Source: Fibrobacter sp. (GTDB lineage Bacteria > Fibrobacterota > Fibrobacteria > Fibrobacterales > Fibrobacteraceae). From it: a stretch of DNA of 33,836 nucleotides. Position 1 is the stretch's first letter, and each line of letters begins with the position of its first letter. The translations under genes and the position numbers were made by a program. The stretch is from contig JAILDK010000017.1 of assembly GCA_024689485.1 (NCBI GenBank), positions 1 to 33,836 on the forward strand. Reading direction: 5' to 3'. Positions 6,528-26,034 of the stretch are shown one piece after another. Below the pieces are notes generated by a model. The model did no database searches and had not been told where the DNA came from. It worked only from the letters and a program-made list of their open reading frames with translations.

Positions 6528-6932
6528 TTAACATTCGGGAACGACATGCGTGGAAACGAATGCGTCGGGATAATGCCTTAAAACGAACTTTCCAAAGCGC
6601 AAATCGACCGTGATAACGTCAAAACGGCATTTTTGATCCTGTCCACCGTGAAAGTGCAGAAAATGCGCCGCGGTTTTCCAAACCTGATTCTGCTTGCGAA
6701 GGTTCACCCGGCTCGCCGGATTTCCCGCGTTGGAATCCCAGACGGATTTGACTTCCACAAAAAGGATGACGCCTTTGGAATTTTTGGCGACGATATCCAG
6801 CTCGCCGTTTTGGTAACGGTAATTTCGCGCGAGAAGGGTACACCCTTTTCGACAGAGATAAGCGGCCGCATGCAGCTCCGCGAATCGTCCTTTTTGTTTA
6901 TTGTAACACTTCAGGTTCTTTCGCGCTATCAT
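6528..6932 (-). CDS. YraN/UPF0102-family endonuclease-like protein
   Basis: A 134-residue protein of the UPF0102 family, which has a restriction-endonuclease-like fold. The active-site pattern is visible: Glu19, GELDIV with Asp46, and VEVKS with Glu60 and Lys62, an arrangement of the PD-(D/E)xK type. Family members occur in most bacteria, often near rnhB or rsmI, and their exact substrate is not settled. Here the gene overlaps the kinase stop by ATGA and is followed by the YciO-like gene, so it is probably carried along in the long minus-strand operon. No domain is missing for the family. Confidence 0.88.
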   Translation of the reverse strand: MIARKNLKCYNKQKGRFAELHAAAYLCRKGCTLLARNYRYQNGELDIVAKNSKGVILFVEVKSVWDSNAGNPASRVNLRKQNQVWKTAAHFLHFHGGQDQKCRFDVITVDLRFGKFVLRHYPDAFVSTHVVPEC

Positions 6933-8413
6933 TGCGCGAGCAGCCCCAGAATGCGCATTTCAGAAATCGCGAAGTCGCTCGATTCGTTGACGATGTAAGC
7001 GTCGTCGAGGAACACTTGGATTTCGGTCGTTTCCATCGCCTTCATCGCCGGATATTGAACGCCCTTGATGTCTTCCAGCTGGATCGTTTGACGGAATCCT
7101 TCCTTGGTCAACAGCGAAAGGGTTTTCGGCTTGTTGAAAATGCGGAAGCGGTCGCCGAATTCATCGTCGATGGATTTTTGGAAGCCCGAGGCGAAACCGA
7201 TGTGCGTGATGATGGTCGGCTGGTCAAAGTCGAGAATGCAGATCGGGGCGCGGGAATTCGTCGGCATCGGAAGAAGCCAGGCCGATTTCAGATCCTTGTC
7301 CAAAAGATTCGACGGTTCGTAATCGTCATCGCCTTCCATGTCGCGTTCTTCGTAAGCGGCGCGAATTTCGACACCGGAAACTTCTTGCAGAGTCTTGGGC
7401 GGTTTGTATGTCAGCAAAAAGGCGAGAATCAAAAGGATCAAGAGCGGGAAGAGCGCAATCGCAAACAGCATCGCGTGCTTGTTCGTGAATTTGCAAACCT
7501 TGTCCGTCACTTGGTTTGAAATCAGCGGGCGGTTCTTGATGAGCTTGCGAATGCTCATGGTGTCGTGACCGTGATGTTCACCCGGGTGGAGCGGCGCAAA
7601 GACAATGTCCAAGGCGTCGAGGAATTCCTGCATGTCCTTGAAACGGTCCGCTACATTTTTCTTCAAGCATTTGAGAATCAGTTTCGCAAGACCCTTCGGC
7701 ATGTCGGGACGGAAGTTCTCCGGATTAGGAGGCTCCTCCTGTACATGCTTCATCGCAATTTCGATTGGCTTGGAACCGGTGAACGGCAAACGTCCGCAGG
7801 TCATTTCGAATAAAATAACACCCAGACTGTAAATATCGGATCCAATCGTGACATCATCGCCGTGGCACTGTTCCGGAGACATGTATTCCGGCGTTCCCAT
7901 GGTCATACCGGTCAAAGTCAAACGTTCCGCCGACTGAATGTGCGAAATGCCAAAGTCCATCAGGTAAACACGGTTGTCGTGCGTGATCATGATGTTCGAA
8001 GGCTTCACGTCACGGTGGACAATCGATTTGCTGTGCGCATAAAGAAGACCGCGGGCGACCTGCTTGGTGATGATCTCAATCGCGTCAAAATCCAGACGGC
8101 GACGGTGTTCCAGCACTTCCGAAAGGGTACTGCCTTTCACGTAGGTCATCGCAATGAATAGCTGATTGCCTTGCTTTCCAAAATCGAACACCTGAACCAG
8201 GTTCTGGTGGTCCAGTTCCTTCATCGCTTGCGCTTCCATATAGAAGCGTTCGATGGATTCCTTATCCGAAGAAGCGTCGAGTACCTTGAGAGCGACTTCT
8301 CGTTTCAGGTTCTTTTGCATGGCTTTGTAAACATAGCCCATGCCCCCTTTTCCGAGGACTCCCAAAAGTTCATAGTTTTCGTTGAACGGTCTTGGAAATT
8401 TTTCTACGGTCAT
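6929..8413 (-). CDS. Transmembrane Ser/Thr protein kinase (PknB type) with an outside discoidin-like domain
   Basis: A 494-residue membrane kinase. The cytoplasmic kinase domain (about 14-272) has the glycine loop GKGGMG (21-26), Lys43, Glu60, HRD (133-135), DFG (153-155) and an APE-like PEYMSPE, so it should be active. A single membrane helix lies at about 314-336. The outside part (340-494) looks like a discoidin or galactose-binding beta-sandwich, with a NLLDKDLKSAW start, an ILDF strand and a closing EMRILG strand, and may sense a ligand. The ATG at 8413 overlaps the upstream ABC stop (ATGA) and sits just before the kinase homology; the longer frame upstream lies inside the ABC gene. The neighbouring protein has a phosphothreonine-binding FHA domain, a likely substrate or partner. 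Confidence 0.93.
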   Translation of the reverse strand: MTVEKFPRPFNENYELLGVLGKGGMGYVYKAMQKNLKREVALKVLDASSDKESIERFYMEAQAMKELDHQNLVQVFDFGKQGNQLFIAMTYVKGSTLSEVLEHRRRLDFDAIEIITKQVARGLLYAHSKSIVHRDVKPSNIMITHDNRVYLMDFGISHIQSAERLTLTGMTMGTPEYMSPEQCHGDDVTIGSDIYSLGVILFEMTCGRLPFTGSKPIEIAMKHVQEEPPNPENFRPDMPKGLAKLILKCLKKNVADRFKDMQEFLDALDIVFAPLHPGEHHGHDTMSIRKLIKNRPLISNQVTDKVCKFTNKHAMLFAIALFPLLILLILAFLLTYKPPKTLQEVSGVEIRAAYEERDMEGDDDYEPSNLLDKDLKSAWLLPMPTNSRAPICILDFDQPTIITHIGFASGFQKSIDDEFGDRFRIFNKPKTLSLLTKEGFRQTIQLEDIKGVQYPAMKAMETTEIQVFLDDAYIVNESSDFAISEMRILGLLAQ

Positions 8414-10491
8414 TTTGCTTTCTTCATGGTTTCTAAAGCGAATATTGCCACAATATAAATTATGAATGCAATGCCGAGAGGAATGCACCAATCCAAGAGG
8501 GCGGGCTTAAGCCCTGTAAAAACGTCCTGCAGGGCGGATTGGTTGTAGCTCGTCCAGATTGCATTCGAAAGAACCTGTGCAAAGGATGTCGCCTGGTCCT
8601 TGGGAACTAGAGCGCCGGAAAGGGCAATCTGCGGAAGGATGATCAGCGGCAAAAAGGCATTGGCCTGCCCCGGGTTCCGTGCGAAGGTGCTCAGCAGAAG
8701 GCCTGCCGCGGAAGCAGGAAGTACCGTCATCAGAAGCGAAAGAAGAAGTTCCGGCGTTGGATAGATTCCGATATTTTCCGCAAAGAGCGCGTAGGCGATA
8801 AAGGTTTCGAGCAGGGCAAAGAATGCGGTGAAGATGAGCTTTGCGCTCATGACCGAAAGCGGGGAAGTTCCCTTGCGGAATTCGTCGAGAAGCAAAGCCT
8901 TTTCCTGAACGATTTCTCGCACAGAAAGCGAAAGCGCAAACCAGTTCGCACAAAGAACCAGCGCAAAGGCGGCGACCCAGAGCGAAGAGGTTTTGGAAAA
9001 AATCTGCGACAGCAAAAAACCAATGACGAGCGGCTGAAGTAAAAGGGAAAATGCCTTGCCGCGGTCTCGGAACCATTGCTTCCAAAGGAGCGTGAAGAAG
9101 TAGAAGAACATGTTCTTCCGCGGAACTTTGGGGAAAAAGCTTCGGGCAGGCTCCGGTTCTTCAATCGCGTTTCCGAGTCCCGATTCAATCCAATTGTCTG
9201 CGGTATGGTCGGAAAGCGTTTCGAGAATTCCTTCCGGGTCTTCAGCGTTAAAATAGCGGAAGGCGTCTTTCGGGGTGCCGTAGAAACCCATATTGCCTTG
9301 GTGAATCAGCAGGACTTCGTCAGAGACTTGCAGAGCTTCGTAGCTGTGGGTCGTGAGAATGACCGTGTGTCCTTTGGATGCCAAAATTTTAAGGTGGGCG
9401 CAAAGGCGTTTGGCGTTTAGCGGGTCGAGCCCTGAAAGCGGTTCGTCTAAAAGGATTAGACCGGGAGCGCCCATCAGCTGCGATGCGATGGCGACGCGTC
9501 GACGTTCACCACCCGAAAGGACGCTGATTCGGCTGTTTTCGAGCTTTTCAATGTGCAAAAGCTTTAAGAGTTCTCTTGCGCGGGCGTCGGTTTCTTCGAC
9601 GGAATAGTCCTTGGGAAGCGTGATGCGGGCCGCAAGTCTCAGCGTTTCTAAAACGGTCAGCGAATCGCGGAGTAAAGGTTCTTGCGGCAGATAGGCGATT
9701 TCACGTCGAACGTTACCTTGTTCGTAATCAATGCCGTCGAGGAGAATGCTCCCGCTTGCCTTGCGAACTTTACCAGCGAGCAGTTCAAGAAAGGTGCTTT
9801 TCCCTTGACCGCTCATGCCGATGATCGAAAGAATTTTCCCTGCTGCAAGGGAAAATCGAATGTCGTGCAAAATTTCCTTGCGGGAAAGTTTCACGGAAAT
9901 GTCTTTGACGATCAGTGAAAATCCGACGTCTTTCTGGTGAACAAAAAGATTCCCGTCGCGGAATTCGAGCAGGCACCAGGGGAGCTTGAGAGTCTCATGA
10001 TTTTCCAGGTACTGCGTTTTCTGCAAACATTGATGGGTGAAGACGAGCTTTAAACGCTTGCCTTCGAGCTTTGCCTTGGCGAGAATTTTGGGGCAAGCGG
10101 GGTGCAGAATCGTTCCTGCATCGTCGTCGTTCGTGCCACGGCGCAGTAAAACGATCTTGTCTTCGGAAAGCGGAATTGCGGGAACGTCTTCGACGGAACG
10201 GACGTGCGAAAGGGAAAGTTCTCCCTGCTTCAAGGAAAATCGAATCTGCTGCAACCCGAGCAGAAAAACGTCGCCATGGAAAATCTCTTTCTCATCGATA
10301 TTTTTTCCGTCAAAGAGAGTTCCCGACGTCTGACTTAAATTGGTGAAAATCCAATGTCCATCGCGGTGTTCGATCTTTGCGTGATGCCTGGAAACGGAAG
10401 CGTCTTTCAGTTCAAAGTCAACATCTTTACCGCGCCCAATCAAGAAAGGCGCGTCCGCAGAAATCTTCTGAACGAAAAAAGTGGAAGCCAT
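8410..10491 (-). CDS. FHA-domain ABC exporter (ABCG-like half transporter)
   Basis: A 693-residue fused protein in three parts. Residues 1-90 form an FHA domain with the phosphopeptide-binding signature (GR 19-20, SRH 34-36, N51, G57-T58). A beta-rich linker of unknown fold follows (about 100-195). The ABC ATPase comes next, with Walker A GMSGQGKST (225-233), signature LSGGE (about 325-329), Walker B LILLDE (345-350) and the LTTHS switch. The C-terminal ~240 residues form an ABC-2 membrane domain with about six helices. This ATPase-before-membrane order is typical of ABCG/White exporters. The closest known analogue is mycobacterial Rv1747, an FHA-ABC protein regulated by the kinase PknF. Here the kinase gene overlaps the stop codon. 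The substrate is unknown. Confidence 0.92.
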   Translation of the reverse strand: MASTFFVQKISADAPFLIGRGKDVDFELKDASVSRHHAKIEHRDGHWIFTNLSQTSGTLFDGKNIDEKEIFHGDVFLLGLQQIRFSLKQGELSLSHVRSVEDVPAIPLSEDKIVLLRRGTNDDDAGTILHPACPKILAKAKLEGKRLKLVFTHQCLQKTQYLENHETLKLPWCLLEFRDGNLFVHQKDVGFSLIVKDISVKLSRKEILHDIRFSLAAGKILSIIGMSGQGKSTFLELLAGKVRKASGSILLDGIDYEQGNVRREIAYLPQEPLLRDSLTVLETLRLAARITLPKDYSVEETDARARELLKLLHIEKLENSRISVLSGGERRRVAIASQLMGAPGLILLDEPLSGLDPLNAKRLCAHLKILASKGHTVILTTHSYEALQVSDEVLLIHQGNMGFYGTPKDAFRYFNAEDPEGILETLSDHTADNWIESGLGNAIEEPEPARSFFPKVPRKNMFFYFFTLLWKQWFRDRGKAFSLLLQPLVIGFLLSQIFSKTSSLWVAAFALVLCANWFALSLSVREIVQEKALLLDEFRKGTSPLSVMSAKLIFTAFFALLETFIAYALFAENIGIYPTPELLLSLLMTVLPASAAGLLLSTFARNPGQANAFLPLIILPQIALSGALVPKDQATSFAQVLSNAIWTSYNQSALQDVFTGLKPALLDWCIPLGIAFIIYIVAIFALETMKKAK

Positions 10492-16757: not shown

Positions 16758-16795
16758 AAAAAAGCTCTTGGTTCATCACCAAGGGCTTTTTTTTT
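16758..16795 (+). terminator. Strong rho-independent terminator of mdh
   Basis: Arms at 16758-16771 and 16779-16792 pair over about 14 bases, with one T-G wobble and a seven-base loop. A run of nine T (16787-16795) forms the end of the stem and the tail. Confidence 0.92.
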
Positions 16796-16836
16796 GCAGA
16801 AATTTGTTAAATTCACAAGACCAACCAAGGAATTTT

Positions 16837-17325
16837 ATGGCAGATATGATCGACGATGAAGAATTGAACGTTTCCGAAGAAAAGCCTAACGAGGACAACA
16901 TCGAAAGTGCGATGAAGCCGCGCGATTACAGTTCGCGTCGCGTTCTCCTGTGGGAACCGGATGAAAATCGCCGTAATTGTGCAATTGAAGTAATCTCGGG
17001 TCTTTTGACCGGTGCTTTTGTCGATGGCGTGGGCACGGAAGAAGAAGCTCTCCAGAAGCTCGATGAAGAACTCTGGGATACTTTTGTCGTGGACTTCTAC
17101 AACGAAGGCTGCTCGGAATCGGAATTCATCAAAAAGGTGAACAATTATCCGAATTCGATTCTTGTCGCGCTGAACCTCGCTCCGTTCACCCTTCCGGAAG
17201 AACGTAACCGTTACAAGATCGAACCTCTCCGCAAGCTCTTCGAAGTTGAAAAGCCGAAGTCGGAAGAAGAGGAAGAGATGGCCGACATCTCCGATGACGA
17301 TTCCTTCGACGAGGAAGATTCGTAA
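16837..17325 (+). CDS. Degenerate response-regulator receiver-like protein with acidic ends
   Basis: A 162-residue protein I cannot assign to a named family. Residues 34 to about 138 read like a receiver domain. Strand 1 ends in EPDENRR (40-46) where active receivers have EDDE. Strand 3 gives VVDFYNEG, with Asp86 at the phosphoacceptor place. Strand 4 ends in VALN, where Thr/Ser is usual, and the KP switch lysine appears as Glu-Pro (IEPL). The protein may therefore be a pseudo-receiver. The first 30 and last 25 residues are strongly acidic. I start at the ATG at 16837 because AAGGAA lies five bases upstream; the open frame before it has no ribosome site and runs into the mdh terminator. It precedes the ABC ATPase gene by 10 bases, so the two are probably co-transcribed. 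Confidence 0.75.
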   Translation: MADMIDDEELNVSEEKPNEDNIESAMKPRDYSSRRVLLWEPDENRRNCAIEVISGLLTGAFVDGVGTEEEALQKLDEELWDTFVVDFYNEGCSESEFIKKVNNYPNSILVALNLAPFTLPEERNRYKIEPLRKLFEVEKPKSEEEEEMADISDDDSFDEEDS

Positions 17326-17335
17326 GGACTGATTT

Positions 17336-18427
17336 ATGGCAGAAGCCAAATCAGCGATTGAACTTTCGCACGTTTCCAAGGCTTACCCTGGAGACGTAGA
17401 TGCGGTTAACGACGTCTCGCTTTCCATTCGGGAAGGCGAGTTTGTCGCTTTGGTCGGCCCGTCGGGCTGTGGAAAATCTTCCATTCTGCGCATGATCGCA
17501 GGGCTTGAAGCTCCTTCGGAAGGGGATCTTTTGCTGCATGGAGAAGATGCGAGCAGACTCGATCCGAAGGACCGCGACATCGCCATGGTGTTCCAGACAC
17601 ATGCGCTGTATCCGCACATGACTGTCCGTCAAAATCTGGAATTTGCTCTTCGCATGAAGGTCGTCTATTCGGCGAAGGAAATCGAGGAACGTATCCGCGA
17701 AGCTGTCGATATTTTGGACCTCGCTCCGCTGCTCGACCGTAAACCGAAGCACCTTTCCGGCGGTCAACGCCAGCGTGTTGCCTTGGGAAGAGCGCTTGTC
17801 CGCAAACCGAAGATCTTCCTCTTTGATGAGCCGCTTTCCGGTCTCGACGCCAAGATGAAGAATCAGATGTGCGTGGAACTCGGCCGTTTGCACTCGCGCT
17901 TACAGGCGACGATGGTGCTGGTGACGCACGATCAGAACGAAGCGATGACCATGGGCGACCGTGTCGTCTGTCTTTCGAATGGAAAGATTCAGCAGGTCGG
18001 GACGCCGATGGAACTTTACGAACATCCGGCGAATGAATTTGTGGCGAGCTTTATCGGGGTTCCTCCGATGAACATCTTCGCTGCGCAGTGGGGACGTGAT
18101 GGCCTTTATTTTGAAAAGGCGGGATTCACTTTCCCGGTCTCCGAAGCGTTTGCGTCAAAGTACCGCACAGTTCCTCGTATGCTTGTCGGGGTTCGTCCGG
18201 AATTCTTTACCATTACGGCTGCGGGTCCGAATACGATTGTCGCCGTAATCGAAGTGGTGGAACATCTGGGTTACGAAACGCTGGTCTATGCGCAGTGTAA
18301 CGATTTGAGTTTGGTCGTTCGCGTTCCGCCGCTTGCTAGTTTTACGGTCGGCGAAAAGATCTATCTCGCGCTCGACGAAAAGAATATTCACTTGTTTGAT
18401 ATTTCGACAGGGGCAAGTTTCTTTTGA
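17336..18427 (+). CDS. Sugar-type ABC importer ATPase (MsmK/UgpC/MalK family)
   Basis: A 363-residue cytoplasmic ATPase that powers uptake through the two permeases downstream. The nucleotide domain has Walker A GPSGCGKSS (41-49), the Q-loop region MVFQTHALYPHMTV, signature LSGGQRQR (140-147), Walker B IFLFDE (160-165) and the switch His in LVTHDQ. A C-terminal TOBE domain (about 240-363) is the regulatory part of MalK/UgpC-type proteins. The ribosome site TAAGGA overlaps the stop of the receiver-like gene. Its own stop overlaps the next gene's TTG start. The transported sugar or polyol cannot be read from the ATPase, since such subunits are often shared. Confidence 0.95.
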   Translation: MAEAKSAIELSHVSKAYPGDVDAVNDVSLSIREGEFVALVGPSGCGKSSILRMIAGLEAPSEGDLLLHGEDASRLDPKDRDIAMVFQTHALYPHMTVRQNLEFALRMKVVYSAKEIEERIREAVDILDLAPLLDRKPKHLSGGQRQRVALGRALVRKPKIFLFDEPLSGLDAKMKNQMCVELGRLHSRLQATMVLVTHDQNEAMTMGDRVVCLSNGKIQQVGTPMELYEHPANEFVASFIGVPPMNIFAAQWGRDGLYFEKAGFTFPVSEAFASKYRTVPRMLVGVRPEFFTITAAGPNTIVAVIEVVEHLGYETLVYAQCNDLSLVVRVPPLASFTVGEKIYLALDEKNIHLFDISTGASFF

Positions 18428-19791
18428 GAATCTTCCGGGCTATTAGGCTTTTGGCCATGTTGCTCTGTGCAGCTTTCCTAGGAAGCTGTAGCTCGGACGA
18501 TGGTCTGCAAAAAGAAGTTTTGCAGCTCTGGATTATGCCGAACAGTCCTGACCCGACTGCGGATATGCAGCACGTTCTGCGCAACTTTGAACTTGAAAAT
18601 CCGGGTATCGAAGTACAGGTGACTGTTCTTGACTGGAGCGTCGCCTGGACAAAAATTACGACAGCCGCTTCCACGCGAAGCGGTCCCGATGTGATTCAGA
18701 TGCCGACGACTTGGGCCGCGGCTGTGACGGCAATGGGCGCTCTCATGTCGATGGATTCGCTGATTGCGGTCTCGGGCGGGGATTCCGTATTTGCGTCCGT
18801 GTCGATGAAATTTGCGCGTCCTGTCGGCGTTCAAAAGGCGACTTCCATTCCGTGGTTCCTGGATGTACGCCCCCTGTATTACAGGCGTGATGTTTTGGCT
18901 GAAGCGGGAGTCAATCCGGCCAAGGTTCGAAATTGGGACGAATTCCGTGTAGCCTTGGAAAAAATTCGCAAGGCCAATTTGAAAATCGAAGATCAGCATA
19001 TCGATCCGATTGGATATCCAGGAAAGCATGACTGGAATGTGATTCACAATTTGGCTCCGTGGATCTGGGGCGCCGGTGGAGACTTTTTGGATTCGACGGG
19101 AACGGAAAGCCGTCTTGCGACCAAGGAGAGCATCAACGGAATTCTGTTCTATTTGAGCCTGGTGCGCGATGGCTATAATAGCCGTAAGAATCTGTCGAAG
19201 AATACGAACCAGGTGAGCATGGATTTTGACGAAGGCCGTCTGGCGTTCTGGTTTGATGTTACGAATAAGACGCTTTATTTGGACAGCCCGCGTTTCCTCG
19301 GCGGTTCTTCGAAGAACGTGACGGCTCGCAATTATTCGGCAATGCTTCCGCCGGTCGCTCCTTTGGGAAAGACGCCTTATTATTTTGCTGGCGGTTCGAA
19401 TCTTTCGGTTTCTCGCTATACAAAGCATAAACGGGCGGCGATGGCTCTTGTGCGTTATTTGGCGGCCCGTCCGGACGTTCAGCTGGAAATCGCCCGTGTG
19501 ATGGGCTTTATGCCGGCGCTCCTTTCCACGTATGAATATCCGTTCTTCAAGGATGACGGAAAGCGTGATGTGTTCCAACAGATGGTTCTGCATTTGCGCT
19601 CTTACCCGGCGGTTCCGTATTGGGGTGAAATTGAAACGGAAATTTTGCTCCGCCGCTTTGGAAATATCTTCGACCTGATTACGTCGAGCCCGGAAAAGGT
19701 TTGGCCGGAAAAGGATATTATTGCAGAAATTCGTGCCGCGGATAGGGAAGTGGACCGCTTTATCCATCGCCAGAGGGAGGGTAATCGATGA
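18424..19791 (+). CDS. Extracellular solute-binding lipoprotein, family 1 (sugar type)
   Basis: A 455-residue lipoprotein that captures substrate for the ABC importer. The signal peptide ends in a lipobox (LGSC) with the lipid-bearing Cys at about residue 22. The mature part has the family 1 pattern, for example FELENPGIEVQV, then GPDVIQMPTTW, and near the end FAGGSNLSVSRYTKHK and AMALVRYLAA. It starts with TTG at 18424, overlapping the ATPase stop (TTGA). The next ATG (18457) would cut off most of the signal peptide, so TTG is preferred. The permease gene overlaps the stop by ATGA. Substrate specificity is unknown, though the family mostly binds mono- and oligosaccharides. Confidence 0.92.
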   Translation: MRIFRAIRLLAMLLCAAFLGSCSSDDGLQKEVLQLWIMPNSPDPTADMQHVLRNFELENPGIEVQVTVLDWSVAWTKITTAASTRSGPDVIQMPTTWAAAVTAMGALMSMDSLIAVSGGDSVFASVSMKFARPVGVQKATSIPWFLDVRPLYYRRDVLAEAGVNPAKVRNWDEFRVALEKIRKANLKIEDQHIDPIGYPGKHDWNVIHNLAPWIWGAGGDFLDSTGTESRLATKESINGILFYLSLVRDGYNSRKNLSKNTNQVSMDFDEGRLAFWFDVTNKTLYLDSPRFLGGSSKNVTARNYSAMLPPVAPLGKTPYYFAGGSNLSVSRYTKHKRAAMALVRYLAARPDVQLEIARVMGFMPALLSTYEYPFFKDDGKRDVFQQMVLHLRSYPAVPYWGEIETEILLRRFGNIFDLITSSPEKVWPEKDIIAEIRAADREVDRFIHRQREGNR

Positions 19792-20726
19792 GAAAGCGTT
19801 ACGTCTTCCTTTTGCCGTTGCTCGTTTTTTTGATGCTCGTTTTTGTGATTCCTGTCTTGATGGGAATCGTGCTTCCGTTCTTTTCGGGTGAAGCGACTCC
19901 GCAAGAGATCCAAAACGGCTCTTTTAGCATTGCGCATTTTATCGAATCGGTTTCGTCGGGTGCGGGAACGGGCTTGATTGATGCAATCCGCAATACGTTG
20001 ATTTACACCTTCTGCGTTTCGAGTGGCTGTATCATTTTGGGCCTTTTCGGGGCTTTGCTGGTGACGCAGAAATTCCCGTCTGCGGGTGTCGTCCGATTTT
20101 TGCTGATGATTTCTTGGGTGGTGCCGACTTATATCGTTGGCCTTCTTTGGGGATTCATGTGGCAGCAGGATGAAGGCATTATCAATATGATCCTGTTCGA
20201 TTATTTGCATTGGGATCAGATTACGGGAATTTTTGGTGCGACATGGAATTATTTGCCGGATGGAACCCTAGTGAAACCGAACTGGCTGACGGGTCCGAAT
20301 ACGATCTGGGCAATTATTGTGCCGGCGATTTGGCGTAACTGGCCGTTCTGCATGATGATGTTCCTTTCGGGGCTTTCGGCGATTCCGCACGATATCTACG
20401 AAGCTGCGGAAATCGATGGTATTCCTCCGCGTGAACGTTTTTGGCATATCACATTGCCGATTTTACGCCCGATTTTTGGCGTCGTCATTCTCGAATGCTT
20501 GGTGATCAATATGTACAGCTTTAACCTTGTCGCGATGATGTTCGGCAACGGTTCGGGCTTCCCGGGCAAATTCGGCGATTTGATGATGACGTTCCTTTAC
20601 CGTACATCTTTCCAGACTTGGAATTTTGGCGCAGGAGCGGCTCTCGGTACGCTTTCGATGTTCTTTATGCTGATTTGCGTTTCGATCTGGTATCGGAATT
20701 TTGGAAAGGAACTGAAGAATGGTTAA
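19788..20726 (+). CDS. ABC sugar permease, MalF/UgpA type
   Basis: A 312-residue inner-membrane permease with about six helices. The EAA loop that docks onto the ATPase is visible as EAAEIDGIPPRERFWHITLP (about 205-224). The first helix (about 5-27) is followed by a loop of about 40 residues, so it lacks the large second periplasmic loop of E. coli MalF. It pairs with the MalG-type permease next to it, which it overlaps by eight bases. Together with the lipoprotein and the ATPase it forms a complete CUT1-like importer. No truncation is seen. Confidence 0.93.
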   Translation: MRKRYVFLLPLLVFLMLVFVIPVLMGIVLPFFSGEATPQEIQNGSFSIAHFIESVSSGAGTGLIDAIRNTLIYTFCVSSGCIILGLFGALLVTQKFPSAGVVRFLLMISWVVPTYIVGLLWGFMWQQDEGIINMILFDYLHWDQITGIFGATWNYLPDGTLVKPNWLTGPNTIWAIIVPAIWRNWPFCMMMFLSGLSAIPHDIYEAAEIDGIPPRERFWHITLPILRPIFGVVILECLVINMYSFNLVAMMFGNGSGFPGKFGDLMMTFLYRTSFQTWNFGAGAALGTLSMFFMLICVSIWYRNFGKELKNG

Positions 20727-22902
20727 GTTCCTCGCCTGGGCATTTGCACTTTTGAACGTCGCTCCGATCCTCTGGATGGTGTGGAGTTCTTTGCTCGGCT
20801 CCAGTGAAATTCAGCAGGGTAAAATCTTTCCGGATCCGTACCCGAATGACGTCGTCTTTTTTGAAAAGACGCTAAACCGCAGTGTGGTCGCTGCAACCTT
20901 GCACGGTCAGGTTTACCAGTACGAAAATAAGGAGTTGCAACCGAGTTCTCGTCAAAAACTCGATCTGCAGGCGGTGTCCGTCAACTATGTGCTTTCGGAT
21001 TCGAGCCTCTACGCCTTTTCGCCCGATGAAGGCCTCATGAAAGTCAATCTGTCGAAGATGCGAGTGGACCGCAAATGGAACTGGTCCGACTTCGAAAGCT
21101 CTTTCAAACAGTATGACTTCTCCACGTTCCGCTACGTGGCAAACCAGACTCCGGAAGGGGAATTCGCCCGTCTAGGCGCTCTTCTCGACACGGTCCCGCT
21201 GATCGAAAAATCGGAATGGACATTTGCAACGCTTTTCAAACGTTCCTTCCCCAGAGATTCAAGCGTCATGGAATCCCTGAACATGATCTTGAATTCGACC
21301 GAAAGCCTTTCCAAGGTCATCGCCATTTGGCAGAAGAAAACGGACTGGGTGAACCCGGCGATTGATAAACTCTTCAAAAAGCGCTTCCGTTCCACCAAGG
21401 AAAATCGTGAACTTTTCCGTTGGTGCTTAGCGGAACGCATTCCGACTCCGCTCACGATCTACCGTCGCATTCCGTGGTCTTCCATTTGGGTGGACCGTGT
21501 GCCGGCGAGCGATCACGGTGTGTCGATTGCGAGTGCGGGTAACATTCTTTGCGTGGGCATGTGGTGGGAATCCTTCCCGGGCATCGCCTTTGTGAATAAG
21601 AAAACGGGAAAGATTGGCTGGGTGACGCCGCAGACCGGTTTGCCGTCGAGTTCCGTGCAACGTATTTTGCGCGTTTCCGATAAGGAAGTTTTGGTGGCGC
21701 ACGACCAGGGATTCTCTTTGATCGATGTGCAAAGTGAAAAGGTCAAGGCGAACTATATCTTTGGCGAATCGGGGCTTCCATTTTACAATGGCCGCGATAT
21801 GCGCCTTTCCATTGTGAGCCGCAGTTCAATGCTCTTTGCCTGCGGACGTGAAATCGTCTTCTTTGATTTCCGTGCGGGTCATGCGGTTAAGCGTCTTTAT
21901 GGCGATTCGCATTTGTTCCAATCGGATATTTCGGTAATCAAGAGCGTTAGCAATCGAGTTTTCTTTGGACTGTCGAACGGCTTTGTCGAAATGAATCTTT
22001 GGGACCTGTTGAACGAAGGCAGTGAACAAAAAACGTATTCGGTGGATGGGACGGCGACGAGTCTTTTCTTTGACAATGGAAATCTGCTCGTTGGCATGCA
22101 AGAAGGTAAACTTGCGAATATCGATTTAGCTTCGGGCAGTGCGGTTGTCAAGGAACAGCTTCCTTCGGGCGGTTTGTATTTGCACTGGCGCAATTATGAA
22201 GACCTTTGGCGCACGATTCCGTTTGGCACTTTCCTTTCGAACTCCTTGCTGATTTGCTGCTCGACGGTCTTGATCTGTTTGATTCTCGGATCGCTTGCGG
22301 GCTACGGTCTTGCGCGGGCTTCTTTCCGTTTGAGCCGTTTTATGAATGTGGGTTTGATCTGGAGTCAGGTGATTCCGAACGTATTGCTTTTGATCCCGGC
22401 TTTCTTGATTGCGTCTTATTTGCAGTTGAATTCTTCGATTCATGTTTTGAATACGCGGTGGGGAATCATTGTGCTGTATTCGGCGCTCTTCCTTCCGATG
22501 GCGACCTGGATTTTGCAGAACTTCTTCCGTTCCGTTCCGCGTGAAATTGAAGAAGCCGCTTTGCTCGATGGCTGTACCCCGTTTACGGCGTTCTTCCGTG
22601 TGATCGTTCCTTCGTCTTTACCCGGCATTTTGACGACGGGCATTTACGTGTTCATTCTTGCGTGGGACGAACTGATGTTTGCCTGGGTGTTCTCGATGGA
22701 TGTTTCGACGGCGACGATTCCGGTGGGCATGCGACTTTTCTTTGGGCAGTTTGCGACGCGCTATGACTTGGTGATGGCGGCGGCAACCCTTTCTACTTTG
22801 CCTGTGATGATTCTCTTTATGATTGTTCAACGTCGCTTGATCAGCGGTTTCCCTGGTGGACGTGCTGTTGCGGCAAGGAATGTGGGCAAGAAGGTTCGAT
22901 AG
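20719..22902 (+). CDS. MalG-type ABC permease with a ~460-residue propeller-like extracytoplasmic insertion
   Basis: A 727-residue protein, whereas MalG-type permeases are usually about 280. Residues 4-26 form helix 1. Residues 27 to about 490 have no membrane segments and should lie outside the inner membrane. From about 493 the normal permease core resumes with five helices and the EAA loop (EEAALLDGCTPFTAFF). The second half of the insertion has repeated beta-strand units, such as TGLPSSSVQRIL followed by VLVAHDQGFSLIDV, then LFACGREIVFFDF, RVFFGLSNGFVEMNL and LLVGMQEGKLANIDL. These look like propeller blades of the two-component-regulator or PQQ-like type. The first half is mixed and helical around 140-240. 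The frame is intact throughout with even codon use, so this is a real fusion, not an assembly artefact. It is the last gene of the importer operon. Confidence 0.9.
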   Translation: MVKFLAWAFALLNVAPILWMVWSSLLGSSEIQQGKIFPDPYPNDVVFFEKTLNRSVVAATLHGQVYQYENKELQPSSRQKLDLQAVSVNYVLSDSSLYAFSPDEGLMKVNLSKMRVDRKWNWSDFESSFKQYDFSTFRYVANQTPEGEFARLGALLDTVPLIEKSEWTFATLFKRSFPRDSSVMESLNMILNSTESLSKVIAIWQKKTDWVNPAIDKLFKKRFRSTKENRELFRWCLAERIPTPLTIYRRIPWSSIWVDRVPASDHGVSIASAGNILCVGMWWESFPGIAFVNKKTGKIGWVTPQTGLPSSSVQRILRVSDKEVLVAHDQGFSLIDVQSEKVKANYIFGESGLPFYNGRDMRLSIVSRSSMLFACGREIVFFDFRAGHAVKRLYGDSHLFQSDISVIKSVSNRVFFGLSNGFVEMNLWDLLNEGSEQKTYSVDGTATSLFFDNGNLLVGMQEGKLANIDLASGSAVVKEQLPSGGLYLHWRNYEDLWRTIPFGTFLSNSLLICCSTVLICLILGSLAGYGLARASFRLSRFMNVGLIWSQVIPNVLLLIPAFLIASYLQLNSSIHVLNTRWGIIVLYSALFLPMATWILQNFFRSVPREIEEAALLDGCTPFTAFFRVIVPSSLPGILTTGIYVFILAWDELMFAWVFSMDVSTATIPVGMRLFFGQFATRYDLVMAAATLSTLPVMILFMIVQRRLISGFPGGRAVAARNVGKKVR

Positions 22903-22956: not shown

Positions 22957-24786
22957 ATGAAGATTCAGCGTAAAAAATCTGATGAATCCCGTGCAACACG
23001 AATTTCTCGTGTGTATTTCAATCGCATGTTCCCGAAGCGAATGGATGCGCTTGAAGTGGCTCTTTCTGTGTTTGTGGGTGTCTTTATCGGTGTTTGGCCA
23101 ACGATCGGCGTGGCGATTATTTTGACGGTCGCTCTTTGTGCGTTGTTCAAGCTTCCGAAAGTTCCGGGCGTGATTTCTTCTTTCGTTGCGAATCCGGTGA
23201 CCCAGTTTGGATTCTTCTATCCGTCGGGATATTTTCTCGGTAAAAAGATCTGGCATCCCGAATCGATTACCTTCGATTTTTTGGAAGAACTGAAGGGGCT
23301 TTCTTTTAGCAACGCGATTGAAGTGGTTTCTCGCCTTTGGAATGAAGCGGCGGGTCACGTGATCGCTTTCCTTATCGGTATCACGATTGTCGCCTTTATT
23401 TTTGGTTTGATTTTTGGCATCGCTGCCTACTTCATCGTTTCGTATCGCAAGCGCAAGCACATCGATATCAAGAACAAGTACATCCACGAATTGATCGCCG
23501 AAGATCAAGTTATTATTAAAGAAGCCAAGCAAAAAGGAAAACACATGCATATCTTTCCGTTCAAAGCACTCCGTCCTGTTGATCCCGCCCAGGCAAAGGA
23601 TATTTCCGCTCTGCCGTATGACGTGATGAACCGTGAAGAAGCCAAGGAAATGGCCAAGGGCCTTCCGTATTCCTATCTGCGCATCACCCGTGCAGAACTT
23701 GAACTCCCGGATTCCGTGGACGCCTATGACCCGCAGGTCTATGCGCACGCCAAGGAAAACTTGGACAAGTTCATCGCTGAAGGCGTGATCGCTTTCGATA
23801 AGAAGGATTGCCTCTACATTTACCGTCAGACGATGGAAGGCCGCGAACAGTACGGTCTCGTTTGCACGGTGCCGGCGAAGGATTACTTCGAAGGCGTCAT
23901 CAAGAAGCACGAACTCACCCGTAAGGATAAGGAAGACGACCGTCTTCGCCACGTGCTCGCCACGAATTCCAACACGGGTCCGGTGTTCCTCACCTACCGT
24001 GACAACGGTCAGTTCGAACTGCTCAAGGACATCATCGCTCGCAAGCCGGTCTATGACTTTGTGACGGAAGCCGACGGCTTTGGCCACACGGTCTGGGTCA
24101 TCGAAGACGATGCAGAAATCGAAAAGATCTGCCGCGCCTTTGACGCCGTTCCGGTCAGCTACATCGCCGATGGTCACCACCGTAGCGCCGCTGGCGCTCG
24201 TGCCGCAGGTTACCGCGCTTCGCAGAACCCGGAAAACAAGGGCGACGAAGAATACAACCGTTACCTCGCTATTCTCTTCCCGAGCACTCAGCTCAAGATC
24301 TTGGATTACAACCGCGTCCTGAAGGATTTGAACGGTCGTACTCCGGAACAGTTCATGGAAGAATTGAAGAAGGTCTTCGAAATTTCGGAACTCCCGGCAC
24401 AGGCTCACCCGACGAAGCAGAATGTGGTGAACATGTACCTCGGCGGCAAGTGGTACGCTTGCGAATTCAAGCAGGAATACTTGCAGAACCTCGGCCCGGT
24501 CGATAGCCTCGACGTGGCTCTTCTCCAGAAGCTCGTTCTGAAGCCGCTCTTCAACGTGGAAGATCCGAGAACCGCTCAGAACATCGACTTTGTCGGTGGT
24601 ATCCGCGGTCTTGGCGAACTCGAAAAGCGCGTGAATTCCGGTGAATGCGCAGTCGCTTTTGCGATGTACCCGACTTCCTTGGATCAGCTGATGGCGATTG
24701 CCGACGCCGGTGAAATCATGCCGCCGAAGAGCACATGGTTTGAGCCGAAACTGCGCGACGGTCTCCTCGTTCATACGCTCGACTAA
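22957..24786 (+). CDS. DUF2062 membrane domain fused to a DUF1015 domain
   Basis: A 609-residue open frame joining two proteins that are normally separate. Residues 1-196 are a DUF2062-type membrane domain with about three helices (for example VFVGVFIGVWPTIGVA and the NPVTQFGFFYPSGY motif). Residues 197-609 form a complete DUF1015 protein beginning MHIFPFKALRPV and containing the hallmark ADGHHRSAA. DUF1015 is often encoded beside serine biosynthesis genes in anaerobes, but its chemistry is not firmly settled, so I do not assign a reaction. The ATG at 22957 follows GGAG by eight bases. Met197 has its own ribosome site (see the separate entry), and codon bias rises sharply after it, so DUF1015 may also be made alone. 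The next gene starts six bases after the stop. Confidence 0.85.
   Translation: MKIQRKKSDESRATRISRVYFNRMFPKRMDALEVALSVFVGVFIGVWPTIGVAIILTVALCALFKLPKVPGVISSFVANPVTQFGFFYPSGYFLGKKIWHPESITFDFLEELKGLSFSNAIEVVSRLWNEAAGHVIAFLIGITIVAFIFGLIFGIAAYFIVSYRKRKHIDIKNKYIHELIAEDQVIIKEAKQKGKHMHIFPFKALRPVDPAQAKDISALPYDVMNREEAKEMAKGLPYSYLRITRAELELPDSVDAYDPQVYAHAKENLDKFIAEGVIAFDKKDCLYIYRQTMEGREQYGLVCTVPAKDYFEGVIKKHELTRKDKEDDRLRHVLATNSNTGPVFLTYRDNGQFELLKDIIARKPVYDFVTEADGFGHTVWVIEDDAEIEKICRAFDAVPVSYIADGHHRSAAGARAAGYRASQNPENKGDEEYNRYLAILFPSTQLKILDYNRVLKDLNGRTPEQFMEELKKVFEISELPAQAHPTKQNVVNMYLGGKWYACEFKQEYLQNLGPVDSLDVALLQKLVLKPLFNVEDPRTAQNIDFVGGIRGLGELEKRVNSGECAVAFAMYPTSLDQLMAIADAGEIMPPKSTWFEPKLRDGLLVHTLD
23534..23547 (+). 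promoter_or_regulatory. In-frame internal ribosome-binding site and ATG at the DUF2062/DUF1015 junction
   Basis: AAGGA (23534-23538) lies six bases before an in-frame ATG at 23545-23547, exactly where DUF1015 homology begins. It could produce a free 413-residue DUF1015 protein in addition to the fused form. Confidence 0.5.
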
Positions 24787-24792
24787 TCGAAG

Positions 24793-26034
24793 ATGAAAAA
24801 AATCCGCTTTCACAGATGGCGATTGAAAACAGCATGCATCTTGGCATGGATGCTGGTTCTTTCGCTTTCTGCGCATGCGGGACATTTGAAGGCCTCCGGA
24901 GTTTCCGCGGGTGGTAGCGTCACACGCGATCTGCAACTGCGGGAATTCGGAATGGTCTTTCACCCGGGAGCCGATGGCTATCTCGGAGCGAATTTGCTTT
25001 ATTTCCCATTACCGAGCCAGTCTCAGCTGAGCACGGAATATGGAAAACACGAAGGCTACGTCCTTCGTGAAAACTTTGCCGGTTACTTTGCCGAAGAACT
25101 CGGAAAGAGCGGCTGGGATTTAGGCGTTCTCTGGTGGATTGAACGTCACGGCTGGGACAGTGAAGACTTTGCTGTTTTCCCCAACTATGGAAAATTTTCG
25201 CTCATTCGCAGCGTCCAGACGACGGGTCTTTCGATTGCCCGGCCGGATTTGAACTTGGGCGTTGCAGGCGGTATCCAGTACACGAATCCGGAATATGTCG
25301 GAAAGGTTTATGAACCGGAAACGGATACTTTGTACGAATGGGCTGCTGCGACCTGGGGACCGATTTCTGCCCAAACGAGCTTTCACCATTCAAGCTTTCG
25401 CCATGCACGTGTTTCGCTGAATCTGGAATCCAAAAAGGTTTTGGGCGGCAGGGAATCCGGCCCGCTGACCTATTTGCCGAATATCGATGTGGCAATTTAC
25501 GATCGGAATGGCGATGGGGAAGACTCGCTTCGCCTTTTCTGGGAGCAGAATTTGATTGCACAGCGTTTGTATGCAGAAGTGGCTGTGTATTTCCCGGATC
25601 CGGCTTTGCGTTTTGTGGCGCTTAAGTATTACCCGGATCCTTCGAAGGTGGTTTCGATCGACGTGACCTGCTACCGCAAGTCGAACGGTGATTTGCTGTG
25701 GGGCGGTGGCATTTCGATGCCTTTTGTCCGCGTCGCATACAATCATGCGGATGATATCGAAAATGTTTTCGGGCTACGCGGCACTTTTGTGTTGCAGTTC
25801 CATTTTGCAATCGAAAAGATTCGCGATACCTTTGTCGGTTTGAACGGTTCCAAGGCAACGCCGATGATGACGCGTGAAATCGATACCGATGATAATGTGA
25901 AGAAGCAGAGAAGGGAACAGCGCGAGCAGGAATTCAACGAGTCCCGTCGCAAGTCGAGCCTGCAGGAATCGTCTAAGACGAATTCCCCGCGAGAAATCAC
26001 GGCTACGGGAATTGTCCTGGAGAAGGCAAAATGA
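24793..26034 (+). CDS. Secreted beta-rich envelope protein of unknown function
   Basis: I do not recognise the family. The 413 residues start with a signal peptide cleaved near SAHA-G (about residue 29-30). A long series of beta strands rich in Tyr, Phe and Trp follows, which suits an outer-membrane or periplasmic beta structure. A DRNGDGED segment at 237-244 resembles a calcium-binding DxNxDG loop. The last ~50 residues are highly charged (KKQRREQREQEFNESRRK) and probably disordered or coiled. The gene follows DUF1015 by six bases and overlaps the next lipoprotein gene by ATGA, so the pair likely works together at the envelope. Confidence is high that it is a real secreted protein and low on its function. 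Confidence 0.78.
   Translation: MKKIRFHRWRLKTACILAWMLVLSLSAHAGHLKASGVSAGGSVTRDLQLREFGMVFHPGADGYLGANLLYFPLPSQSQLSTEYGKHEGYVLRENFAGYFAEELGKSGWDLGVLWWIERHGWDSEDFAVFPNYGKFSLIRSVQTTGLSIARPDLNLGVAGGIQYTNPEYVGKVYEPETDTLYEWAAATWGPISAQTSFHHSSFRHARVSLNLESKKVLGGRESGPLTYLPNIDVAIYDRNGDGEDSLRLFWEQNLIAQRLYAEVAVYFPDPALRFVALKYYPDPSKVVSIDVTCYRKSNGDLLWGGGISMPFVRVAYNHADDIENVFGLRGTFVLQFHFAIEKIRDTFVGLNGSKATPMMTREIDTDDNVKKQRREQREQEFNESRRKSSLQESSKTNSPREITATGIVLEKAK

Follow-up and report, generated by a model that had tools for sequence, protein, structure and literature searches.

The locus raises the question of why a MalG-type permease should carry a giant domain between its first two transmembrane helices, what this domain is, how it was acquired and what it might contribute to import. 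The window, meaning the whole stretch of 33,836 nucleotides that was analysed, encodes the permease together with its partner subunits (Table 1), and the architecture is almost certainly that of a CUT1 ABC importer with a beta-propeller lodged inside loop P1 of MalG.

Table 1. Features of the importer operon and of the propeller-bearing permease, in window coordinates
Feature	Position	Strand	Evidence
MalG-type permease with propeller insert, 727 aa	20719..22902	+	single open frame
Transmembrane helix 1, residues 4-26	20728..20796	+	hydropathy; basic N-termini of orthologues
Periplasmic insert, loop P1, residues 34-484; predicted seven-bladed beta-propeller with helical subdomain	20818..22170	+	AF2, HTCS-propeller profile match, Foldseek
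Predicted blades 1-2, residues about 45-120	20851..21078	+	AF2 insert model
Predicted helical subdomain, residues about 122-252, between blades 2 and 3	21082..21474	+	AF2 insert model; sequence comparison
Predicted blades 3-7, residues about 266-480	21514..22158	+	AF2 insert model
Permease core, five helices, PF00528	22171..22845	+	domain match, hydropathy
EAA loop EEAALLDGC, residues 611-619	22549..22575	+	invariant positions
MalF-type partner permease, 312 aa, without large loop	19788..20726	+	domain match, hydropathy
Lipoprotein-type solute-binding protein, beta-glucoside/cellodextrin group	18424..19791	+	lipobox LGSC in sequence
MalK/UgpC-type ATPase	17336..18427	+	score above UgpC subfamily cut-off
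Conserved operon ORF, weak receiver-like signal	16768..17325	+	

A conserved permease with a periplasmic insert

MalG (20719) is the last of five co-directional genes and follows a small open reading frame (16768), the ATPase (17336), the binding protein (18424) and the MalF partner (19788), so named by start position; the operon context of a complete importer is present. The permease core matches PF00528 (BPD_transp_1) over residues 523-707 with 62.1 bits against a cut-off of 26.4, and all of the 20 orthologues compared share E611, E612, A614, D617 and G618 of the EAA loop, which bears out the normal five-helix core with an intact EAA loop described in the initial annotation. The protein scores 101 bits against the maltose-transporter equivalog NF008231, below the cut-off of 261, and domain searches of MalG returned neither a kinase nor a receiver domain. 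Within the window, none of the genes flanking the operon was identified as a glycoside hydrolase gene.

Hydropathy places a helix at residues 4-26 and the next one only at about residue 510, as had been read before, with six helices overall. The N-termini of MalG orthologues are rich in Lys and Arg and strongly basic, which, together with the six helices, indicates an N-terminus on the inside and hence an insert on the outside, the location assumed earlier. This topology argues strongly that the propeller sits in the periplasm beside the translocation mouth. In the MalF partner the first two predicted helices are only about 45 residues apart, so that it lacks a large loop, as claimed.

The frame runs uninterrupted through all 727 codons. 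Full-length orthologues are intact, with 68-95% identity within the genus and down to about 30% within the family; one of them lies on a single 3.1-Mb contig and the others come from many independent assemblies. A frame error, which would have refuted the earlier reading, or a chimera is therefore ruled out, because the orthologues are intact in independent assemblies and the insert has a low dN/dS. Nei-Gojobori ratios range from 0.06 to 0.14 for the insert and from 0.03 to 0.13 for the core; synonymous sites are near saturation in all pairs except the closest, so the value of that pair (0.064) is the figure to trust. In the genus of the window the insert is therefore maintained by purifying selection.

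Intact orthologues occur in 28 of the 168 Fibrobacterota genomes and in 8 of 41 genera, the genera being counted among good genomes, and the well-sampled genus g2 of the same family gave no match. Named matches include Fibrobacter sp. MAGs (yak rumen, UBA1313) and Fibrobacteria GUT307. One Fibrobacteraceae genome (G013) lacks part of the insert. In some family members (L036/L037, MalG of 787/809 aa) a Pro/Lys-rich low-complexity stretch lies inside the propeller region and the protein has a C-terminal extension.

Fold and relatives of the insert

An AF2 model of residues 28-490 alone, computed with four sequences, reached a pLDDT of 77 and a pTM of 0.74 and contains seven four-stranded blades, whose limits in Table 1 are the numbering of the insert model plus 27. 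The alignments behind the structure predictions were shallow and held sequences of the window and related loci only. A full-length model was weak (pTM 0.40) and was dropped as stand-alone evidence, and its strand pattern agrees with that of the insert model. The Foldseek matches listed for the insert model are propeller proteins, namely the designed Tako8, HTCS BT3049, WD40 proteins and BamB. The initial annotation had proposed a propeller-like domain of about 460 residues built of repeated blades; the propeller part of this holds in the model, but the roughly 450 residues are not all blades, since residues of about 122-252 form a helical subdomain. This subdomain is missing from a genus of the same class (g15) and from the relatives in candidate division WOR-1, and is therefore a family-specific addition. 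The insert is thus predicted to be a seven-bladed beta-propeller with a helical subdomain of 130 residues between blades 2 and 3.

The inserts of Fibrobacteraceae, of the same-class genus and of WOR-1 are homologous, with pairwise profile comparisons of 99.2%, 98.6% and 99.3%. Compared with all solved structures, the WOR-1 insert profile matches 3ott (3e-30), 4a2l (1e-23) and 3v9f (2e-19), all of them sensor domains from hybrid two-component systems (HTCS) in Bacteroides, with the next match at 0.06. The profile of the Fibrobacteraceae inserts, the clade of the window, finds 3ott weakly (1.4e-5) and designed propellers better (1e-7), and the same-class profile on its own had no match in the PDB. 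Reg_prop (PF07494) is matched weakly in 2 of 29 members, at best with 0.005, and other weak Pfam matches of the insert are PQQ_2 and the PorZ propeller. Judged by these profiles, the insert is related to the propellers of HTCS sensors, chiefly through its WOR-1 members. It is described here as related to HTCS propellers rather than as a member of Reg_prop, because the strong match comes from the WOR-1 profile and the other two give weak matches or none.

The HTCS propellers (BT4663, 4a2l; BT3049, 3v9f; 3ott; Reg_prop PF07494) are seven-bladed and periplasmic and are the nearest by profile. HTCS sensors, however, combine two propellers with a Y_Y_Y domain and a kinase, whereas the window encodes one propeller within a permease loop.

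No search supports the insert as a relocated MalF P2, whose fold (2r6g) differs from a propeller. The E. coli loop is likewise large and periplasmic, occupies the equivalent site between TM1 and TM2 of the core and contacts MalE, but it lies in MalF rather than in MalG and measures about 180 residues (PMC2246101). MalF has eight helices with P2 between helices 3 and 4 (PMC2246101), and once its two additional N-terminal helices are set aside, MalG P1 falls at the equivalent place of the core.

A precedent for the site is found in Thermotogales, whose MalG1 and MalG2 were reported to have a hydrophilic stretch of about 500 residues separating helix 1 from helix 2, of unknown function and thought unique at the time (Noll 2008, PMC2246101). 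Both these proteins and the window MalG have a giant insert between TM1 and TM2, and the earlier suggestion of an undescribed importer architecture therefore fails in its strict sense, as the Thermotogales inserts were reported in 2008. Homology between the two inserts was rejected, however, since the profile probability is 0.2-0.5% as against 99% among the propeller groups, and the Thermotogales insert is helix-leaning by composition whereas that of the window is a predicted propeller. The general idea of a giant MalG P1 insert is thus already known, and the propeller version appears undescribed: the literature searched, which misses most subscription journals, contained no propeller-bearing permease and no mention of its link with beta-glucan uptake or of its occurrence in both Fibrobacterota and WOR-1. 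MalG P1, next to the binding-protein contact, took up large unrelated domains in separate lineages. Giant MalG forms are present in nearly all of 41 genomes around the genome G061, and in Thermotogota loci (L134, 1795-4155, minus strand; L181-L190) the insert has 485-535 residues at the same site.

Distribution and history of the propeller

The initial annotation had asked whether permeases with this insertion cluster in one phylum; the propeller permease is distributed over at least two, Fibrobacterota and candidate division WOR-1. A WOR-1 genome encodes a 482-aa propeller form, and the core was found in 46 of 57 relatives of this genome, most of the frames having a length of 600-657, 480-491 or about 297 aa. 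Within WOR-1 the insert ranges down to about 200 residues or is absent. No insert-bearing relatives appeared in samples of four further phyla among the best few candidates scored per genome, and the matches in one of these searches measured 297-302 aa. The Bacillota permeases found have about 289-311 aa and no insert. An apparent Bacillota member of 757 aa (L212) was discarded as a spurious long frame in GC-rich DNA, the actual permease there being without insert, and the long frames in actinobacterial matches likewise appear spurious.

A tree of the core, with the insert left out, unites all propeller-bearing permeases, the propeller-less WOR-1 forms and two Bacillota permeases (L052/L053) in one group (100/99); the latter two share a core clade with the window permease but are insert-free. 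The propeller-less and short WOR-1 forms fall together (100/98), nested among the propeller-bearing permeases of WOR-1 (fork 90/72). This nesting is explained more simply by loss, and the tree suits one old gain of the propeller followed by shrinkage and loss. A second gain may also have occurred, as the placement of the two Bacillota rows is weakly supported. The contrast between two WOR-1 loci (L051/L054) was considered as a fresh insertion and dropped, because the propeller-less group is nested in the propeller-bearing one.

In one WOR-1 lineage the propellers are full, and every flank of sufficient length shows the binding-protein gene as a neighbour of the permease genes. Its sister lineage has no binding-protein gene next to the operon; five of its loci retain a full propeller, and at the remaining ones the propeller is reduced or missing. 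Shrinkage and loss are thus confined to the lineage that lacks this neighbour. Such a pattern is expected if the propeller serves the binding protein. Against this, the correlation concerns a single lineage, five loci keep a full propeller without the adjacent gene, and adjacency is not the same as presence. Since closely related cores bear a full propeller, a short one or none, they form a natural series that makes the role of the loop directly testable.

Substrate and role of the propeller

Among solved proteins the binding protein of the window is closest to 7c63-7c71 (2e-88), which we take to be the beta-glucosides-binding protein of Thermus thermophilus, and to C. thermocellum CbpB (1.7e-70), far ahead of any other. 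The Thermus protein is the structural counterpart of CbpB, which binds laminaribiose and cellodextrins with KD values for G2-G4 of 0.6-1.9 uM (PMC9601137). The window importer shares this binding-protein group with the cellodextrin and beta-glucoside CUT1 importers of C. thermocellum (transporter B with CbpB) and Thermus (the beta-GlyBP system). WOR-1 operons adjoin large GH8 genes (7 loci; single-domain GH8 genes occur at others), GH26 or GH116 genes, an enzyme with CBM30 and CBM11 is encoded at 4 of 5 same-class loci, and a GH1 gene lies alongside the propeller-less Bacillota sister operon. The binding-protein group and the GH/CBM neighbours agree and point to beta-linked gluco-oligosaccharides, and the substrate very likely belongs to the cellodextrin/laminaribiose class. 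In F. succinogenes, the route of cellodextrin transport has been described as unknown (PMC6851124); in Fibrobacterota, of which some come from the rumen, a propeller related to glycan sensors would be part of a likely cellodextrin importer. The GH8 proteins beside the WOR-1 importers (L151, L154, L158, L160, L161, L168, L170) have 1571-2340 aa, some being cut by the ends of the stretches.

The explanation that best covers the observations, and that we regard as reasonably probable, is a CUT1 importer of beta-gluco-oligosaccharides with a propeller in P1 for docking and possibly for glycan binding. MalG would be the second permease subunit of this importer, and its propeller could give the lipoprotein binding protein, once loaded, an additional surface on which to dock. 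The central shaft of the propeller may itself hold glycan, and the presence of beta-glucan fragments might thereby favour delivery and the opening of the permease. In E. coli, MalE interacts with MalF loop P2 and MalG loop P1, according to the title of Daus 2007 (given in PMC3150292), and the propeller is thus placed where it would be able to meet the binding protein. Disaccharides bind to the propellers of the HTCS protein BT4663 at their entry faces (PMC5121618), which makes glycan binding a reasonable second role. Nevertheless, the fold leaves function unfixed because propellers serve many functions, and we put the likelihood that the propeller acts in binding-protein docking or glycan binding at slightly under even. 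The docking or sensing module that had been postulated for the insert is therefore plausible, P1 being in contact with the binding protein in E. coli, but its supposed move from the partner subunit is not borne out, as nothing ties the propeller to MalF P2.

The kinship with sensor propellers, which are the nearest solved relatives, lends some weight to a different role, in which the propeller is a flux or ligand sensor and the importer serves as the periplasmic input of a signalling chain that is read by the receiver-like protein of the operon or by a nearby kinase. The first gene of the operon (16768-17325) is conserved in Fibrobacteraceae. The N-terminus of its product is acidic and is followed by a weak receiver-like domain, in which an Asp within WDTFVVDF is invariant and occupies the position of the phospho-site. 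In one genome (G015, L034) malG is followed after 4 bp by the gene of a HisKA-receiver protein without a matched sensor domain. With a best E of 0.004-0.009, however, the receiver signal of the first gene is a weak one, Pfam had no match in the window copy, WOR-1 and same-class operons showed no receiver-like gene of this sort, and the kinase neighbour was seen in one genome only, which leaves the sensor role somewhat unlikely. A bolder version, in which the permease captured an HTCS-type sensor propeller and so united sensing and import, would have the propeller read beta-glucan fragments or the loaded binding protein, set the activity of the permease and, in Fibrobacteraceae, signal to the receiver-like protein; we consider it unlikely.

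The large projection into the periplasm and the weak matches to PQQ_2 and the PorZ propeller could also indicate that the propeller anchors the importer to the outer membrane, to the cell wall or to another periplasmic protein and so holds it under the site of beta-glucan breakdown, and BamB and PorZ are propellers that work in the envelope. Yet the flanks examined contain no partner gene conserved across the groups beyond the importer subunits, and such tethering is quite improbable. Finally, the insert might be an ancestral extension that is now mainly structural or functionless and is lost piecemeal, as its shrinkage or absence in WOR-1 and its partial absence in G013 would allow, but purifying selection in the genus of the window and retention across 8 Fibrobacterota genera make this very improbable. 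Docking of the binding protein, with possible glycan binding, is the role that we prefer for the propeller.

A few further genes were noted alongside the importer. The 388-aa HisKA and receiver protein of G015 is encoded at 8546-9709 of L034, on the minus strand, directly after the propeller malG. In the window, positions 22957-24786 encode a 609-aa protein in which DUF2062 is fused to DUF1015 and which is syntenic with the importer in close relatives, and a 413-aa protein with no Pfam match (24793-26034) is kept beside DUF1015 and smc in the genus. At 6929-10491, on the minus strand, a Ser/Thr kinase gene adjoins that of an ABC-2 exporter protein whose N-terminal domain is of the FHA type, and the pair is possibly a kinase-controlled exporter.
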